Source: Candidatus Methylacidiphilales bacterium | Lineage (GTDB): Bacteria > Pseudomonadota > Gammaproteobacteria > JASGCS01 | Reading direction: 5' to 3' | NCBI GenBank assembly: GCA_030054035.1 | Contig: JASGCS010000002.1 | Span: 1-56,939 of the forward strand | DNA: 56,939 nt | In this document: positions 39,607 through 56,141 of the stretch, one piece after another | How positions within the stretch are numbered: position 1 is the stretch's first letter | Layout of the letters: every line of letters starts with the position of its first letter | Made by a program: the position numbers and the translations under genes | Notes under the pieces: generated by a model | Database searches by the model: none | Told to the model about the DNA's origin: nothing | Seen by the model: the letters and a program-made list of their open reading frames with translations, nothing else

Positions 39607-40080
39607 TTACGATGCTATTAGCTGCTGTAACTCAGATACACTTGGGATTCTAGATACTGAAAATCGGATTAGTTTAATTCCTGCACTCTTAAGAGCCTCA
39701 TCCTTTTCCTGATCTGATCTGATTCTATTCTTTTGTTTATGTGAGCTATCATCAAGTTCTATGGCAAGACAGATTGTGTAATCGGTACTGCATACAACAA
39801 AATCTAGGGCTTTTCCATTTATTTTATTAAATTGAACTAAACGCTGACTATAATTTACAATATTTGGGTCAACTTGGACAACTTGATTTAGTGAAACTTG
39901 GGCTAAGACAACATGGCTGGGATAAGCTTTTATAAGTGCTTCATAGAGAATTTGTTCAGGTTTGCTCAATATCGGTGATTTTTGTACAAATTCAGGTTTG
40001 CTCTCTGTTCGCTTTAGCAACCGATAAATTACGAATGCTACTATCAACAGAATTACTAATACGATCACGACTCTAATCAT
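39607..40080 (-). CDS. DUF2726 protein with membrane anchor (restriction-endonuclease-like fold)
   Basis: 157 aa. N-terminal membrane helix (about 3-24), then a DUF2726 domain: PEQILYEALIKAYPSHVVLAQVSL, ALDFVVCS, IELDDSSHKQ and DQEKDEALKSAGIKLIRF. The D...ExD spacing resembles PD-(D/E)XK nucleases, and DUF2726 is often fused to helicase or topoisomerase domains. Its own TATAAT is 7 nt before the ATG. It lies between the adhesin and the T4SS; the target is unknown. Confidence 0.8.
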   Translation of the reverse strand: MIRVVIVLVILLIVAFVIYRLLKRTESKPEFVQKSPILSKPEQILYEALIKAYPSHVVLAQVSLNQVVQVDPNIVNYSQRLVQFNKINGKALDFVVCSTDYTICLAIELDDSSHKQKNRIRSDQEKDEALKSAGIKLIRFSVSRIPSVSELQQLIAS

Positions 40081-47602: not shown

Positions 47603-47689
47603 TGAATGTATATTTTATATGAATAAATTGAATTTTTAGTACATGGATAGCACTTTACTTTATTCATAAATTATAATATGGCAATTGAA

Positions 47690-49243
47690 ATGATTAGAAG
47701 TCATAGAAAAGCTGCCTATCTTATTTCGTTTAGTGCTGTAATTGTAGCTATTTTTGGAATATGGCGATTTACCATAATTTCACCAAACTCTGATGAGTTT
47801 ATACAGTATCACCGGCTTGCCTGCTTTAATTTCAAATTTGCCAGTGAACATGAATATCTTTGGTCTTGCTCGGGCGCGAATAAAGCTAACATACTAGGTT
47901 TTACTTACCATAGGAATTTTCCATACACTGGTGCGGTTTCTAACCTATTCTACGCACCGTTTTATTTTCTCAATCAAACTAAATACTCACATTATTTATA
48001 TGGTATTGTTATGGTTACTTTGTTTGGATGGTTGCTCATTCGCGCCCTCAAACTACCATGGTATTTACTAATACTTCCACTAGTTTATGTGCCACTACTC
48101 TACCAAAGTATGCATGATGCTGGGCCAATTCGCATTGCTTTAGTCGCTCATCCACTCTTGATATGTCTTACGCTGATACTCTTTAGTGAATATAAAAAAC
48201 AAATCAAATACTTAGCGCTTTTTGGAATATTTTTCATCACGGCAATTGCTATTGAAGATAAGCCTTTTTTTATTTACTTAATACCTCAAGTGATAATACT
48301 CGCCATTGCCACTAGCTACTATCATTACCGTAATATTACGATTGTAGTTATTAAAAACAATTTATTTTGGGCGATACAAATAGTAGTAGCAATAGCGTTG
48401 GCAATACTATTGGTGTTAGTAATAACTCAAATTACAACTGATAATAGTAAAGAGTTTATAACCTACATTAAATATTTAATAAAAATGAAAACAATTTATA
48501 TTGCAAACTTAGAACAAGAACTAACTTTTATACTTCGTTATAGTTTTTCACCAACTATCTTTGTTACAGACCGATGGGTTATGTTATCAAGTAGTCAAAT
48601 GATACTATCGTTTCTCTCATTTATTCCACTAATCTCAATTGCCTTATTTCAAATATGGAAAGAGCGAAAAGGTTACGGTAAGTATCTAGCATTTAGTTTC
48701 GGGACTACCTGTTTAATATTTTTAATTATGAGAAATACTTACCTCGGCCATCATTTTATTTTCCTTCATATCCCTCTGATTATCGCAATTATAATCTTTG
48801 CAAGCACTTCTTTGCAACGGTATTTTATTACAGTGATGGCAATGGCATTGGTAGTTGTGGTCACAACATATCAAATTGCAATTATAGAATTTAAGGATAT
48901 CTCTGACGGTGCCTCTAGTCCAGATCGTGAAATATTGGCAATTTATTTAGCTAAACCAGAAATTGCACAGAACTCAATCATTAACTACACCAGTAGTGGG
49001 GGTTATTTCATGCAATCACTTTTCGGTCACCCAGATCAACTCGTCACTCACATTCAACCCATCAATCTAGCAGAAACACAATCACTTGAAGTAAAGTTAA
49101 AAAAACTCAATAGAAAATATATTATAAATTTATGTCGTGGTTGCACCAAAGATGAATTGCAGCCATTTTTCCCAAAAGCTACGATTACGGAAATTGACCT
49201 CAACGTAACTCAATGGCATGCCTGGCAATTAGAATATAAATAA
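47690..49243 (+). CDS. Polytopic membrane protein, possible GT-C-type glycosyltransferase
   Basis: About 517 aa with ten to twelve membrane helices. After the first helix comes a polar loop PNSDEFIQYH, an Asp-Glu pair placed like the catalytic acid pair of GT-C enzymes (ArnT/PMT type). A soluble C-terminal domain (about 430-517) ends HAWQLEYK. I see no closer family match. ATG 47678 sits directly behind TATAAT, so ATG 47690 is the likelier start for a short leader; homology cannot decide. It is divergent from the giant adhesin. Transferring a sugar to envelope glycans or proteins is inference only. Confidence 0.5.
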   Translation: MIRSHRKAAYLISFSAVIVAIFGIWRFTIISPNSDEFIQYHRLACFNFKFASEHEYLWSCSGANKANILGFTYHRNFPYTGAVSNLFYAPFYFLNQTKYSHYLYGIVMVTLFGWLLIRALKLPWYLLILPLVYVPLLYQSMHDAGPIRIALVAHPLLICLTLILFSEYKKQIKYLALFGIFFITAIAIEDKPFFIYLIPQVIILAIATSYYHYRNITIVVIKNNLFWAIQIVVAIALAILLVLVITQITTDNSKEFITYIKYLIKMKTIYIANLEQELTFILRYSFSPTIFVTDRWVMLSSSQMILSFLSFIPLISIALFQIWKERKGYGKYLAFSFGTTCLIFLIMRNTYLGHHFIFLHIPLIIAIIIFASTSLQRYFITVMAMALVVVVTTYQIAIIEFKDISDGASSPDREILAIYLAKPEIAQNSIINYTSSGGYFMQSLFGHPDQLVTHIQPINLAETQSLEVKLKKLNRKYIINLCRGCTKDELQPFFPKATITEIDLNVTQWHAWQLEYK

Positions 49244-49307
49244 TAATTGCACGAATTAGTCGGTGGTTGATCGCAATAATGTTACCTATATTTTGATTAA
49301 AATTATT

Positions 49308-52300
49308 TTAGGGTAATTGGTCGTGGATAATAAATGAATATAAAGTCTTCAGTTCAATAGTATGGTCTCTGAACCAATCTTCTGACCAAATTCTATAGAC
49401 CCGATAACCGAGTTTCTCAATGATGTGCTGTCTATGCACATCGTGCCAGTGCGCTTCAGGGGTTGAATGATATGTTTTACCGTCACATTCTAAAACAATT
49501 TTTTCTTTGCTAGGAGTAGTAAGGAGCATATCAACTCTAAAACCACCTATCTTTACCTGCTGCTGGATAGCTAGCTCAGGAATATTCTTTTTAATAAGTT
49601 GATACACCTCTTCTTCAAATGGCGATTCAGATTGATTTAGTGCAGGTTGTCTGCTTCTTGAGTGAGATCGTGATTGTAAGATTTCTAGTATGCTATTTGC
49701 TCCTGCTATATCATTATTATGAATAGCTTCCGCATAGCTAAGATAGCTGAATAATATGCCTTTACCAGTATTGCCTTTTGTGGCGATTTCATCGTGGTAG
49801 CTGCTATAGACATCTTTAGGTATTGAAGTGCAAATAAATATTTTCTGTTTTGCTCGGGTGAATATAACATTCAGGAACTTATGGCCCTTTTGTGATTTAT
49901 TAATCTCACCAAATCGATAAAAGAAATTACCTTCTTCATCTTTACCAAAAGTAGTTGAAATAATAATAATATCTCGCTCATCTCCTTGAATATTTTCAAG
50001 ATTTTTAATAAACAGACCAGCTTGCCTTAATGCCTGAATATTTTTCTTTTCAGTTGCCGATCCTTCCGATTCTTTTTGATAGAGGAGTTTCAAAATACAA
50101 TTTCTTTGATTAATATTAAAAGTAGCAACACCTACTGAAGGCATTACTCCATTAGTTGCTGATATGGCATTAAGCAAAAGTTCAACCACGGCATTAGCTT
50201 CAATCGGGTTAGTTCCTGATTCATTTTTAAGTAACCCACTTCTTTTGGAAACTTGATCATTGGTTTTTTTTCTTGAATAATAGATACCTTGCGTTTGTAT
50301 AAAGTGAATAGGTGTGTACTCCTGTTTAGCCGGAAGAGGTATTAGATTATTTCCATAAAAGGCTGCATTAGAAAAATTAATCAAAGCTGGGTGCTGGGAT
50401 CGGTAATGAAAATCTAAATATGATTTATTCTGGTTTTGTGATTGCTGTGCGTAATCCAAAAGTGATTCTGATCCGGATAGCGCTTGAGCCTCAGTACTTT
50501 CACTATCATCAGCATCTTCATCATTATCATTATCATCGTCGAGAGTTATGTTTTTACCAAAGTAACTAGAGGGTGGCATTTGATGTTCATCCCCAGAGAT
50601 GATTTTATATTTTCCACGCAGCATGCACGTTAGGGTGTCCTCTAGTCGTAATTGGCTGGCTTCATCAAAAAGCACATAATCAAACAACCCAGGTGTAAGC
50701 GGAATAAAGGCATTGGCGGCTTCTGGGTTAGTTAAAATGACTGGAAACACACTTAATACCAATGTTGGATCTTTTTTAAAGATATTGCGCAGTGAATTAC
50801 GAGGCCCGTTCTTAGTTCTTTTTTTATTAAGGAGGAGTTTGTAATTATACTCATCTTTAGTTTTAATCTGTTTTAGATGCCCTGATATTTTTTCAGACCA
50901 TTGATATTGTATATGACCTGGAATTGCATTAATCATCGCTTGATTAGATTTAGTTAAATCCAGTAATAGTTTTTCGTATTTTTTTCTATCCTCATGAGTT
51001 AATGGCAACACTTCTGAATTTACTTTTGACAATTTCTCTAAGGCGCTTTCTAGCATGTTGGTGATGAGAATATTTATCCAATAGTCAGATGGAATCTTTT
51101 CAGTAATAAGACGATCTATAAACTGCGGTGTATCTGCGGGCATGCTGGTACGCAAATAATTCCACGAGCATAAATCAAAATATACTTCTTTTTGTTTTAG
51201 GATCATTTCCACTAACATGCAGTTTGCATTGATTTGTTTTAATAACTCAAGGTAAGACATTGAGGTCAGACCAACGAGTATGGAGTTATGCATAGTTTTT
51301 TTAATTGGGAGCGCCTTAAGACTTTCCGTACACTGGTGCAGTGTAGAACGCAAGGCTTGAACTAACTCAACTTTCTCTTTGCTCTCCTTGACAGATTTAA
51401 TATTTTTAGCCATAGAATATACTCCATCTATCAGGTATTCGTAGATTTTCGGGTATGGATGGTATCTACGCTTCGCTAACTCAGATTCTGGAATATTCAC
51501 TAAGATAGTTTTTACAGCTTGTTCAGTTTTTTTCATTACCATAAGAAAATCACGCAACCCTGTTTCAATTGCTTTTTCACTTGCATGGTCCAAGGGAGTG
51601 TCATACTCTCTTTCAACAAATACTTTAGCTGCGAGCGTTGCTATTTCTGTTTCATGTATCTTGCGCAATAACTTAATTGCCTTTTCAAGATTATCATACC
51701 ATTGCAAATATTGTTCACTATCCAAATAGAGCGGATAATTCAATCTGTAATTTTGAGGAATGACTTCTCGGTTCTTAAAATACTCTCCAATTAAAGATTT
51801 GAGCGTTTTATCATTATGTAATCGTTTAGAACCAAATTCGTAGCGTGGAATTAGCTGTTCAATTATTTTCACAACCGTATCATGCAACGCAATCAAATTA
51901 CTTGGGTTAGGCTTGACCAAGTCTCGGTCTCTAGAGTCTTCTAACAATTCGCAGATATCCCTTGCCTTATCCACAAATTCTTTTCTATCTTTATAAATAT
52001 CATCAATAGTAATAGTCATCTGGTCTAATCCAACCTTTTTAAGATTTTCATAAATCACATCAAGCGCAGTTTTTTTCTCACAAACAACTAAACAAGTCTG
52101 ACCTTTGGCTAAGGCATTTGAAATAATTGCTGTTAAGCTTTGACTTTTCCCAGTACCGGGTGGTCCGTAAATTATCTTGACTTCATCTTTAGCTAAAGTA
52201 GATACTATTTCAAACTGGCTTGGGTCAACTGGCACAGCAGTAGCGGTAGACAATTCTCTGGAGGGAGGGTCAGTTTGACTCGGCTGTAAAGATTCTACTG

Positions 52301-53072
52301 AGGCCGATAACTCCTCCATACTCTGGATAATTGTTTCTTTAGGAGAAACATAGAGACCAAAAACTCCTGACCAATGGATTTCAGTATTTTGTAAGTTTTC
52401 AACTGAGGTCTTTTCAGCCCTACGCAGAGTTTTATTAATTATATAGTCACTATGGAGCTTGGTTAATAATTCCTGAGTAATTTTTTCTATTTCATCCTGA
52501 TTAATAATTTCATCGTCTAAGATTGATTCGGGAACTTGATATTTGCACGCTTCATCGGTTTCTAAGTACGAGAGTAAAAATTCATTAAACTTAACCACCA
52601 TATCAGCATTTCGCTCAATTTTCCAAGTATTAGGTTTAGAAGTTACTTTCTTTAATTCCAACGACCAAATCAGTAATGGAGCGTGAATAATTTTATCTGG
52701 ATCAATTCTACTTCTCTTTACTAAGAGAGGAAAACCAAAACCAAAATTCTTAAACCCAAACTCTAAAAAGTTGTCTTCATTTTCATTATAAATATTTTCT
52801 AGTCGTCTAATTAACGCAGCTGCTTCAGCCTTTTCGTCTTCATTGCTTGTCGATCTCTCCAATGTGGAAACTGAGAGTTCTACACTAAATGCCACTTCAT
52901 GTAAAAGCTTAGTAAGTAGCTCTTTGCTTAACCCTTTTTTGCATAGTTCCAGATCAAGCAGATCAATTCTCTTGCTCATTCGTCCTGGCAAAGCAGATAG
53001 ATGAATTGAGGTTTTGGTTGCCTGCTTGAGCTTCTTTAGTAAAGTGTCAACTAGTACTTTATTTATTTTCAT
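49308..53072 (-). CDS. SF1 helicase (DUF4011-like) fused to a C-terminal PD-(D/E)XK/Vsr-like nuclease; candidate defence protein
   Basis: 1254 aa from ATG 53072. The N-terminal part (about 1-250) resembles the helical head of large DUF4011-type helicases. Walker A GPPGTGKS is at 303-310 and Walker B FDEASQ near 800 (DEAx-type). Motifs NIQGDERDIIIIS and NVIFTRAKQKIFIC come later. The C-terminal domain (about 1150-1240) has SPFEEEVYQLI, FRVDMLL and IVLECDGKTYHS, a D...ExD/GK site as in Vsr-like nucleases. Such fusions recur in anti-phage islands. Starts at 53114 or 53081 are possible, but TATAAT 7 nt before 53072 favours the last. An acidic spacer (DDDNDNDEDADD) interrupts the helicase core. 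Confidence 0.82.
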   Translation of the reverse strand: MKINKVLVDTLLKKLKQATKTSIHLSALPGRMSKRIDLLDLELCKKGLSKELLTKLLHEVAFSVELSVSTLERSTSNEDEKAEAAALIRRLENIYNENEDNFLEFGFKNFGFGFPLLVKRSRIDPDKIIHAPLLIWSLELKKVTSKPNTWKIERNADMVVKFNEFLLSYLETDEACKYQVPESILDDEIINQDEIEKITQELLTKLHSDYIINKTLRRAEKTSVENLQNTEIHWSGVFGLYVSPKETIIQSMEELSASVESLQPSQTDPPSRELSTATAVPVDPSQFEIVSTLAKDEVKIIYGPPGTGKSQSLTAIISNALAKGQTCLVVCEKKTALDVIYENLKKVGLDQMTITIDDIYKDRKEFVDKARDICELLEDSRDRDLVKPNPSNLIALHDTVVKIIEQLIPRYEFGSKRLHNDKTLKSLIGEYFKNREVIPQNYRLNYPLYLDSEQYLQWYDNLEKAIKLLRKIHETEIATLAAKVFVEREYDTPLDHASEKAIETGLRDFLMVMKKTEQAVKTILVNIPESELAKRRYHPYPKIYEYLIDGVYSMAKNIKSVKESKEKVELVQALRSTLHQCTESLKALPIKKTMHNSILVGLTSMSYLELLKQINANCMLVEMILKQKEVYFDLCSWNYLRTSMPADTPQFIDRLITEKIPSDYWINILITNMLESALEKLSKVNSEVLPLTHEDRKKYEKLLLDLTKSNQAMINAIPGHIQYQWSEKISGHLKQIKTKDEYNYKLLLNKKRTKNGPRNSLRNIFKKDPTLVLSVFPVILTNPEAANAFIPLTPGLFDYVLFDEASQLRLEDTLTCMLRGKYKIISGDEHQMPPSSYFGKNITLDDDNDNDEDADDSESTEAQALSGSESLLDYAQQSQNQNKSYLDFHYRSQHPALINFSNAAFYGNNLIPLPAKQEYTPIHFIQTQGIYYSRKKTNDQVSKRSGLLKNESGTNPIEANAVVELLLNAISATNGVMPSVGVATFNINQRNCILKLLYQKESEGSATEKKNIQALRQAGLFIKNLENIQGDERDIIIISTTFGKDEEGNFFYRFGEINKSQKGHKFLNVIFTRAKQKIFICTSIPKDVYSSYHDEIATKGNTGKGILFSYLSYAEAIHNNDIAGANSILEILQSRSHSRSRQPALNQSESPFEEEVYQLIKKNIPELAIQQQVKIGGFRVDMLLTTPSKEKIVLECDGKTYHSTPEAHWHDVHRQHIIEKLGYRVYRIWSEDWFRDHTIELKTLYSFIIHDQLP

Positions 53073-53079
53073 TAAGGAC

Positions 53080-53085
53080 ATTATA
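53080..53085 (-). promoter_or_regulatory. -10 box of the helicase-nuclease gene (leaderless start)
   Basis: Exact TATAAT on the minus strand, 7 nt before ATG 53072; it also argues against the longer start at 53114. Confidence 0.5.
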
Positions 53086-53116
53086 ATAGCATCACTGATA
53101 TGATAAACAATCATAA

Positions 53117-53164
53117 CAAAGTCACCTACCGCATTGGCAAGCCTGGCAATTAGACTATAAATAA
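53117..53164 (+). pseudogene. 3' remnant of a GT-C-like membrane protein gene
   Basis: Frame ending at TAA 53162-53164 reads HWQAWQLDYK after a few residues. The gene ending at 49243 finishes QWHAWQLEYK. At DNA level 53132-53164 matches 49211-49243 except for three bases (one at the third position, one mid-motif, one near the end), then diverges. An in-frame stop lies upstream at 53114, so only about 16 codons remain. It flanks the helicase gene on the side opposite the intact copy. Confidence 0.7.
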
Positions 53165-53266
53165 GCCAATCAATTACTATTAATTAAGCTCGCGAAAATT
53201 TCATGTATAGTGAATTTAATACTCTGGTATCGGCATTCTTACAAAGCAAAATAACTTAGTGCATTT

Positions 53267-55246
53267 TTAAAAATAGTAAGAAACGCCGAAGCCAGTATAA
53301 ACATTTGCATTACCTTTATTATAATCAGAGAGATCCCCATTATCAAAATTCGCAGCTGGTAATCCCATTGGCTCTTGCAAGAATCCAATTTTAATGGCTT
53401 GATGTACTAACTTCTTATAATCTGGCAAATAGATAGTATTAAATGAAAAAGGTATTTTAGTAAATGGAAATGCGAGATAAAAATTAATTTCAATATTTTC
53501 ATACACCTTACTAGAATAGTTAGTTGCGATGCCATAACATTTACGACAAGATGAAAAAGTCCCAAATATAAATGAAGCCTGCTCTTTATTTTCTATACCA
53601 AAGCGTTGTCCAAGTAGAAAAGTAGGGATAATAGTAATTTCATTAATGGAAGGGTAATAAGCTTTCACATCAGATGGGTATTTTTTATTTTTAAATTTAT
53701 ATAGGTAAAAATAAAAATTAGCAAAAAAGCCATCATCGTCTTCATTACTAAAGCCTAGACTTAAAAACTCATAATACACTTCACTATAGAGCTTTCCGCC
53801 ATTTTTAATTAACGCTTGCAAGTATTCTTTATCATCTATACGATCTGAGTTAGTCCTTGGTCTATTACAACCCAAATAGCTTGAAGAAGAATAATGTTGA
53901 ACTGCAAGTAATAATAGCGCACATGGAGGCGGGTTTATTTCATATGTATCATCATATCCAGAAACTAAATCAAAATCATAAAATGGGATTGGGTTTAGGA
54001 ATTTTAGATAATCAATCTGAAATGTGTAATGCGGTTCAGTTACAACAGAAAGCTCCAAACCAATTGCTTCTACTTGAGCAAATCCATTATGGTAATCAAC
54101 TTCAATATTGTAGAGCGGGGTGTTCAAGTTGGGATTGATATTCTCTCGATTATAATAACAATCAGATTGACTAGGGCATAGTGGAACATGGGCAGGTAAA
54201 GCAGGCAGTGCTTGCACCAGCCTCATTTCCATACCTTCTCTGGTTGGCACTTGACCAAAGTATCCATTAAAGTAAGTAAGTGCAAAGATAACCTCGTCAT
54301 GATAGAGTAAGCGAAACGCTTGTTGCGAGCTTTTATTTGGCCGATATTTTACATCTCCATAATCATTCGTAAATTCACATTCACTCCTGCCCCAAGTCGC
54401 CTCGCCTTGACATAGCGCATTAATTTTCTTAAACACATGTGAAGTTTGCAATGCTTGTATTCTGCCAAAGTAATCTCCCACTGGATCACGATCATGATTA
54501 AAAAAATAGTAAAATTCAAGCTCTAAAGTTGGATCTGCAACAATTGTTAGCAACGCCAACTGATTTGGATATAAATAATCAGATACATTTGCCTTTACAC
54601 TAAACTCTGTTTGAGAAAATGGTAGCAAAAAATTAAGTGGAGATACTAATGAATTTTGACCCCAAACTATTTTCTGATTACCAATTTTTAAACTTGCCAC
54701 TTCATCACCGAGCTCTAAATAAGTCTCATCAAAACGAAAATAAGAATGGCTCGTATTAAAAACACGAACATGGTAGTTATCGTCATTATAATATTGATAG
54801 GGATCTGAATACCTTTCAGGAAAAAACTTGCGAAAATAACTATTGTACTCATCATTATACTTTGCACAGTATGTTGTTTTTCCAGAACAAGCCCAATAAG
54901 CCGTCGTTGAATCAATCTCCCCTCTTAATTTATAACTTGTATAGTATGGATCTGAGTAATCTATACTAAGCGCATTAGAATATCTTGCTCTTGTAGTATT
55001 TGCATAAAATTCAACATGTATTTTTAAAATATCATCAAAAGTATCTTGCCAACGAAAACGAAGTGAAAGTGATTGTAGATTTTCAAAATCTGTATCCACC
55101 CCCTTACCCACCACACTATAATTTATAAAACCTGAAATATGCTTATCAATATAATCAGAGTCTTTAGTATCCTCACCCCATCCTTGATGAATATAAGCTA
55201 AAACAATAATTCCAAATATCAACCTAATCATTGAACCATTATTCAA
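53267..55246 (-). CDS. Cysteine-rich outer-membrane beta-barrel, paralogue of the MMPL-operon barrel
   Basis: 659 aa. Signal peptide about 1-24, then DKHISGFINYSVVGKG and LSLRFRWQDTF, parallel to DKHFSGQFNFNYGG and NLRFKWQDDF in the barrel at 8484-10136. The shared LKIGNQKIVWGQNSLVSPLN follows near residue 195. It ends GFGVSYYF with C-terminal Phe. It has about 13 cysteines (WACSGKTTYCAK, LCQGEATWGRSEC, PLCPSQSDC, SSCRKC), many in close pairs, whereas its paralogue has only a few. It overlaps the upstream paralogue gene by 8 bp. No MMPL or LolA-like partner adjoins, so it may share the other operon's partners or have another job. Confidence 0.72.
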   Translation of the reverse strand: MNNGSMIRLIFGIIVLAYIHQGWGEDTKDSDYIDKHISGFINYSVVGKGVDTDFENLQSLSLRFRWQDTFDDILKIHVEFYANTTRARYSNALSIDYSDPYYTSYKLRGEIDSTTAYWACSGKTTYCAKYNDEYNSYFRKFFPERYSDPYQYYNDDNYHVRVFNTSHSYFRFDETYLELGDEVASLKIGNQKIVWGQNSLVSPLNFLLPFSQTEFSVKANVSDYLYPNQLALLTIVADPTLELEFYYFFNHDRDPVGDYFGRIQALQTSHVFKKINALCQGEATWGRSECEFTNDYGDVKYRPNKSSQQAFRLLYHDEVIFALTYFNGYFGQVPTREGMEMRLVQALPALPAHVPLCPSQSDCYYNRENINPNLNTPLYNIEVDYHNGFAQVEAIGLELSVVTEPHYTFQIDYLKFLNPIPFYDFDLVSGYDDTYEINPPPCALLLLAVQHYSSSSYLGCNRPRTNSDRIDDKEYLQALIKNGGKLYSEVYYEFLSLGFSNEDDDGFFANFYFYLYKFKNKKYPSDVKAYYPSINEITIIPTFLLGQRFGIENKEQASFIFGTFSSCRKCYGIATNYSSKVYENIEINFYLAFPFTKIPFSFNTIYLPDYKKLVHQAIKIGFLQEPMGLPAANFDNGDLSDYNKGNANVYTGFGVSYYF

Positions 55247-56141
55247 TTATCCAACCAATCTTTATGTTATACCCATAAATATACTTAAACTTAAGGTATG
55301 ACCGTTCCGACACATCAGCGTCTGTCACATACGAAGTTTTGTACGATAATACACTCCAACCAACATACAATGAATCATCAGGAAATAAATGCCTCATCCC
55401 TATACCAATACCATCAGGGCTAAATATACCATTGAATTTTGGGTCAAGTTCTTCACCTTGATACTTGGCAGTACCGCTATCCCATGCATTTGTAGTATAT
55501 AAATAGTTGTAAGTCAAATCTAAGGTAGGAGCAATTGGAAGTAAATAAAAGCAGGAGTCTTTACAAATACTAGGACTATTAGTCAACTTGCGGGAAGTGG
55601 TATATTTCTTAGCATTTTTTATTTTATACAGAATATTATCCCTAGCATAATCTAAGTCAATGCTTAGATAATTATTTTGACTTACTCCAAATAAAATACT
55701 AAATGATTTTATATTACCGAATAAACCTGAAGATTTACTCGTTTTTGGTATGAACTCTTTAATATCACTTTCAATATATCTACAATTTCCGCATCTCTCT
55801 CTTTGATCCCCAACAACGGGAAGGGTAGCTGCAGTTAATTCAAACCCCATTAAAGATTCAGAAAGATAGAGGTATGAATAAAAAATACGATTAGTATTAG
55901 TTGAGATTGGAGCAAAGTTAGTAAATTTGTCATAAGAATTGTACGGACTTTTATTTTCATCATAGTATTGTCTACCATCGTAAATAGAATCTCCCTTAGA
56001 AACATACCAATTGAATGCTCCACCAATCACATGGTAATGTCTTACTTTGCTTTCTTCTTCTGAATACGAGCTGATGGTAAAACCAATTACGAACATTAGA
56101 ATACTTATAGTGAGTATATAATTTTTGAATTTATATTTCAA
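55239..56141 (-). CDS. Outer-membrane-type protein, tandem paralogue 1, unknown family
   Basis: 300 aa with an N-terminal signal peptide (about 1-28) and amphipathic beta-strand pattern (YSYLYLSESLMGFELTAA, LDLTYNYLYTT, GIGMRHLF, LKFKYIYGYNIKIGWIIE), suggesting a small outer-membrane barrel or periplasmic beta protein. Cysteines occur as C-x-x-C (RCGNCRY) and CKDSCF. It is nearly identical over long blocks to the gene just upstream (right edge of window). It overlaps the Cys-rich barrel gene by 8 bp, so the three form one unit. I recognise no family. Confidence 0.6.
   Translation of the reverse strand: MKYKFKNYILTISILMFVIGFTISSYSEEESKVRHYHVIGGAFNWYVSKGDSIYDGRQYYDENKSPYNSYDKFTNFAPISTNTNRIFYSYLYLSESLMGFELTAATLPVVGDQRERCGNCRYIESDIKEFIPKTSKSSGLFGNIKSFSILFGVSQNNYLSIDLDYARDNILYKIKNAKKYTTSRKLTNSPSICKDSCFYLLPIAPTLDLTYNYLYTTNAWDSGTAKYQGEELDPKFNGIFSPDGIGIGMRHLFPDDSLYVGWSVLSYKTSYVTDADVSERSYLKFKYIYGYNIKIGWIIE

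Follow-up and report, generated by a model that had tools for sequence, protein, structure and literature searches.

When restriction-modification (RM) genes insert, they can leave long target duplications, variable in length and of the order of 100 bp, with no known mobile element involved (PMC3031569, PMC3874152 and PMC1643837, which cite Nobusato et al. 2000, Gene 259:99, and Furuta et al. 2010, NAR 38:2428, on insertion with long target duplication). A locus in the genome of a Candidatus Methylacidiphilales bacterium (GCA_030054035.1) displays a defining feature of such insertions, direct copies of a target sequence on both sides of a putative insert. It also resembles them in that the gene between the copies is of defence type and comes without a transposase, and in that several arrangements of this kind, with duplications of variable length and one of them around a type II RM system, occur in the same genome. 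The locus differs in its cargo, which is a single helicase-nuclease gene instead of RM genes (RM cargo being typical of the pattern, not strictly defining), in having 41 nt of recognisable duplication compared with about 100 bp, a length that may have been eroded from a longer original, and in that the event is read from one genome.

The window, by which we mean the whole stretch of DNA that was analysed, comprises 56,939 nucleotides (contig JASGCS010000002.1, positions 1-56,939, forward strand). The target gene (47678-49243, plus strand) encodes a multi-pass membrane protein of 521 aa and has an intact 3' end. Copy 1 of the direct repeat (49203-49243, plus strand) corresponds to its final 13 codons including the stop. 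It is followed by the candidate inserted segment of 3880 bp (49244-53123), which holds one large gene, the helicase-nuclease (49308-53114, minus strand), and past whose ends the repeat does not extend. Copy 2 (53124-53164, plus strand) falls within no gene and, from the repeat alignment, is a remnant of the target gene 3' end that is apparently not translated. The presumed native downstream flank (53165-53266) leads to a gene for a beta-barrel-like protein (53267-55246, minus strand, DUF1302 match), which has the same direction as the helicase-nuclease. Joining position 49243 to 53165, as a model of the empty site, gives an ordinary convergent junction. Only one ORF of at least 100 aa lies between the repeat copies, and neither the ORF listing nor domain searches revealed a transposase, integrase, or IS there.

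The initial annotation had described the end of the membrane gene as repeated beyond the helicase-nuclease gene in a 33-bp remnant with three mismatches, in the same frame and with the same stop. The repeat is real: 49211-49243 and 53132-53164 agree at 30 of 33 positions, with a common frame in which both end at TAA. Its length has to be corrected, however, as it reaches further upstream and spans 41 nt (49203-49243 and 53124-53164, 35/41 identical, 85%). Copy 1 translates to VTQWHAWQLEYK and copy 2 to LPHWQAWQLDYK, each followed by the stop, with the consensus W[HQ]AWQL[ED]YK-stop at the end, and at copy 2 there is an in-frame stop a few codons upstream of LPHWQAWQLDYK. The similarity ends abruptly on both sides, with none before 53124 or past the stop, and no homology was detected between the flanks of the remnant and the membrane gene or between the two downstream flanks. 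The six differences between the copies are all transversions (zero transitions); four of the six are third-position changes, and of the five amino-acid replacements that result four are mild.

The repeat has a Smith-Waterman score of 52, compared with a maximum of 28 in shuffles, and a BLAST E value of 1e-8 within 24 kb and 1.6e-6 genome-wide. A DNA pattern search allowing three mismatches located it at two places only in the 1.7-Mb genome. The initial annotation had proposed a genome search for other genes with the same C-terminus, and a six-frame protein search of the whole genome placed W.AWQL.YK-stop at the same two sites and nowhere else, so the motif is not a common one and a common C-terminus was rejected as the source of the repeat. 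We also considered the remnant as a promoter of the helicase-nuclease gene; it overlaps a 9/12 site, but shuffled sequence has sites of this kind at least as often, and this explanation was discarded.

That a 3.8-kb helicase-nuclease gene lies between the copies was borne out, with a reading frame intact and open over 1268 codons and with matches to the expected domains. The predicted protein has an N-terminus with a weak DUF4011 match, an SF1 helicase core (AAA_11/AAA_12, Walker A GPPGTGKS, DEAS), and a C-terminal MTES_1575 nuclease of the PD-(D/E)XK type (ECDGK). Judged from this sequence, it most likely translocates on nucleic acid by means of the SF1 helicase and cuts with the C-terminal nuclease. 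It is a relative of the defence proteins PDC-S37 (PADLOC), ProA (NF058533), and Hhe (NF042953), with which it shares the SF1 core followed by the MTES_1575 nuclease and the weak N-terminal DUF4011 match. It differs in length, having 1268 aa compared with models of 1550-1900 aa, and its best-matching stretch is the C-terminal half. By the model cut-offs it is not a ProA or Hhe member (451 bits versus a cut-off of 1500 for ProA, and 322 bits versus 2000 for Hhe), and PDC-S37 matches at E 6e-138 in two stretches, the best of which covers profile positions 712-1338 of 1550. The Mokosh helicases MkoA and MkoC have a related SF1 core, but match much more weakly (E 3e-28 and 1e-24), and here the MTES_1575-type nuclease is in one polypeptide with the helicase and no partner gene is adjacent. 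A Flammeovirga plasmid homologue of 1217 aa aligns full-length over residues 15-1266 with 34% identity; the protein thus seems to be a short form with natural ends, and the homologue suggests a short subfamily. We infer a role in defence for the helicase-nuclease.

Nothing marks the gene as foreign, since it does not stand out from the rest of the genome in GC content (35.7% compared with a mean of 36.4%), GC3, or codon use, and a foreign composition was rejected on these measures. We saw no clean flanking duplication of gene ends at any of 20 related helicase genes examined in other genomes. Elsewhere in the phylum, a genome (G373, C1:370999-376679) has the 3' end of an Hhe-like helicase gene itself duplicated (422 nt, 100%) around an inverted IS66-like pair. 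The genome studied here has a likely defence island elsewhere (C9:44000-56000) with a second SF1 helicase-nuclease (MkoC/PDC-S37-like), a DUF262-like gene, an RT-like ORF, and apparent DarT and DarG, all names but that of the helicase being assigned by eye. The window also contains a small DUF2726 nuclease gene (39607-40080) with a weak MTES_1575 match, which has a cluster with a TraM/TrbI-like gene on one side and a haemagglutinin-like gene of 2500 aa on the other.

The membrane gene had been called GT-C-like in the initial annotation, a name that stands by layout only. The 521-aa protein matched no Pfam or NCBIfam family and its structure model is unusable (pLDDT 39), so the GT-C identity remains a guess. 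The genome has one paralogue (C6:68388-69896, 47% identical), whose C-terminus YWRMWKLSY has the W..W.L.Y pattern in common with the target protein, and an Omnitrophota MAG provided one distant match (25%) in which the W..W part of the C-terminal pattern is present. As the paralogue has W..W..Y too, and the Omnitrophota homologue part of it, the end of the protein is under constraint. Within the class, searches of 56 and 369 genomes returned no credible homologue. Around the paralogue there are interleaved direct repeats (C6:69877-69910 and 72358-72391, 34 nt, 91%; C6:71272-71304 and 74466-74498, 33 nt, 100%).

We scanned the genome against itself, and the ends of each gene against their 12-kb surroundings, reading 1,715,541 of the 1,716,532 bases as stretches. 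Six further loci have direct copies around other cargo; the names parB, ileS, ABC ATPase, HipA, and oxidase were given by eye from translations. The 3' end of parB is duplicated (C6:53004-53158 and 55651-55804, 155 nt, 88%) around a type II RM pair, an N6/N4 DNA methyltransferase gene and a DpnII-like endonuclease gene; this is the clearest footprint of insertion with target duplication in the genome and is textbook in form. At a second locus, copies of 155 nt with 79% identity (C3:48169-48323 and 51073-51227) surround an AbiL-like abortive-infection pair, AbiLi (an ATPase, E 5e-54) and an RloB-like protein; the duplicated stretch there is not clearly the 3' end of a gene. An hsdM-like gene and an Abi_C gene lie immediately before this locus. 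On C9, copies of the 3' end of an oxidase-like gene have a 62-nt core (98%) and surround one 392-aa protein of no named function. Past the core the two copies continue into two different in-frame C-termini, which would be the outcome of an insertion just within the gene that brought a new C-terminus with it.

The remaining three loci are a duplication of the ileS 3' end on C8 (44 nt, 84%) around four genes, the outer two of which are mutual paralogues; one of the 3' end of an ABC ATPase gene on C16 (31 nt, 87%), ending exactly at the stop, around one gene of a coiled-coil family; and one of a HipA-like/pentapeptide junction (483 nt) around a single 221-aa protein of no named function. Small genes from a single coiled-coil family occupy the two ends of the ileS insert, one is the only gene inside the ABC ATPase duplication (C8:62737-66965 and C16:3907-4499), and further copies are found on C1, C10, C13, and C15; these genes may mark a mobile unit. 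Counting the helicase locus, three of the seven loci have recognised defence-type genes, a raw count from which we claim no enrichment. Site-specific integration at att sites was rejected, because the interval between the copies lacks an integrase and no common sequence is evident among the other targets (parB, ileS, ABC ATPase, and oxidase-like genes).

Intergenic copies of 3' ends with a gene between were direct in 30 cases and inverted in one, many of the 30 coming from one tandem array on C5, and all but two of the 30 direct copies lie downstream. In reversed local DNA, the control, the maximum was 47 bits, reached in a low-complexity gene, compared with 48 bits for the repeat at the helicase locus and 108-325 bits for the stronger cases. 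The helicase repeat and the cases of 31-44 nt are therefore near the edge of what a genome-wide scan can establish by itself, and what supports the helicase repeat itself is its common frame, stop, and position. A looser scan over 16.5 kb, which has no power to detect an excess, gave matches in the G373 locus alone across 340 kb of other genomes and one match across 875 kb (four contigs) of the genome studied here.

We consider an old insertion of the helicase-nuclease gene at the 3' end of the membrane gene, with target duplication, to be the best explanation, at somewhat better than even odds (roughly 0.55). The gene would have entered as a single-gene segment and the target sequence would have been duplicated in the insertion event; copy 1 would have preserved an intact membrane gene, and copy 2, released from function, would have decayed to 85% identity while the composition of the helicase gene drifted to that of the host. 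A likely route would be template switching or strand invasion where a gene end is broken or being replicated, or else single-crossover integration of a circle that carries the gene end and the cargo. Either would copy the target, and the survivors would be those in which the target gene remained whole. That the duplication was simultaneous with the insertion and that the gene is of outside origin is what we infer. This reading is favoured because recognised defence genes at other sites in the genome have this footprint around them and the published pattern matches, and the locus would fit a footprint of the parB type with an older and shorter remnant. Several observations count against it. The duplication is short (41 nt), the GC content and codon usage of the helicase gene are ordinary, and the related helicases elsewhere lack clean flanking duplications (0/20). 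The six transversions and the mild changes also speak against it, since transitions would be expected in a copy that decays neutrally, as at parB, where the copies have eight transitions among 18 differences.

The initial annotation had left the choice between an acquired defence cassette and a decayed tandem paralogue, and of these the cassette is the better supported. The paralogue remains a reasonable but clearly less probable candidate. Under it, the downstream site was occupied by a second, diverged membrane gene, all but the last 41 nt of which the helicase-nuclease gene replaced. The similarity stops exactly at the stop codon, and the changes between VTQWHAWQLEYK and LPHWQAWQLDYK, mostly at third positions and mostly mild, are as between coding paralogues; the family has its second member elsewhere in the genome, and decayed tandem copies do exist here (C5:43808-47951, and a mosaic pseudogene at C9:33759-34687). 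Both of those pseudogenes retain several internal segments, however, whereas no other part of a second membrane gene was detectable in 49244-53123 or past the remnant. The earlier conclusion that the site used to hold a second membrane gene hence does not follow, as duplication of the 3' end alone suffices. A tandem origin also requires duplication, divergence, and near-complete replacement, and the same footprint occurs at parB and ileS, normally single-copy genes, which argues for one common cause.

It is improbable that a recombined foreign segment brought its own diverged membrane-gene end along with the helicase-nuclease gene, copy 1 or copy 2 then being the donor version. Such a segment would account for why the copies differ in a coding-like manner, and the divergent C-termini of the oxidase-like copies on C9 offer a parallel, but no donor sequence was found, and in the collections searched hardly any members of the membrane protein family lie outside this genome. 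Chance similarity or a conserved C-terminal motif can be dismissed as very improbable: the final W..W..Y pattern does recur in the paralogue and, in part, in the Omnitrophota homologue, but the score is far above the shuffles, with a local E value of 1e-8, the remnant is outside any gene, and the full motif is restricted to the two copies.

Insertion with target duplication, the mechanism proposed for the helicase locus, is known in kind, and its interest is the recurrence of the footprint around several defence types in one genome. We suggest, tentatively and with more doubt than confidence, that one transposase-free process placed a number of unrelated genes, both defence and accessory, at the ends of other genes here, with a target duplication at each event that spared the target gene; the cargo counted in this suggestion is the helicase-nuclease, the DpnII-like RM system, the AbiL-like pair, and the single genes of no named function. 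Accounts of target duplication mainly concern RM genes, in closely related genomes, e.g., of Helicobacter pylori. The footprints in this genome differ in apparent age (98% to 79% identity), the oxidase-like copies on C9 being likely the youngest, and they involve different defence types, so that comparing strains would make it testable how small, transposase-free defence genes spread between chromosomal sites. Searches for recently acquired genes could also take duplicated gene ends as their signal. If the suggestion is true, insertion with target duplication would be a general route for small defence genes and not a peculiarity of RM systems.
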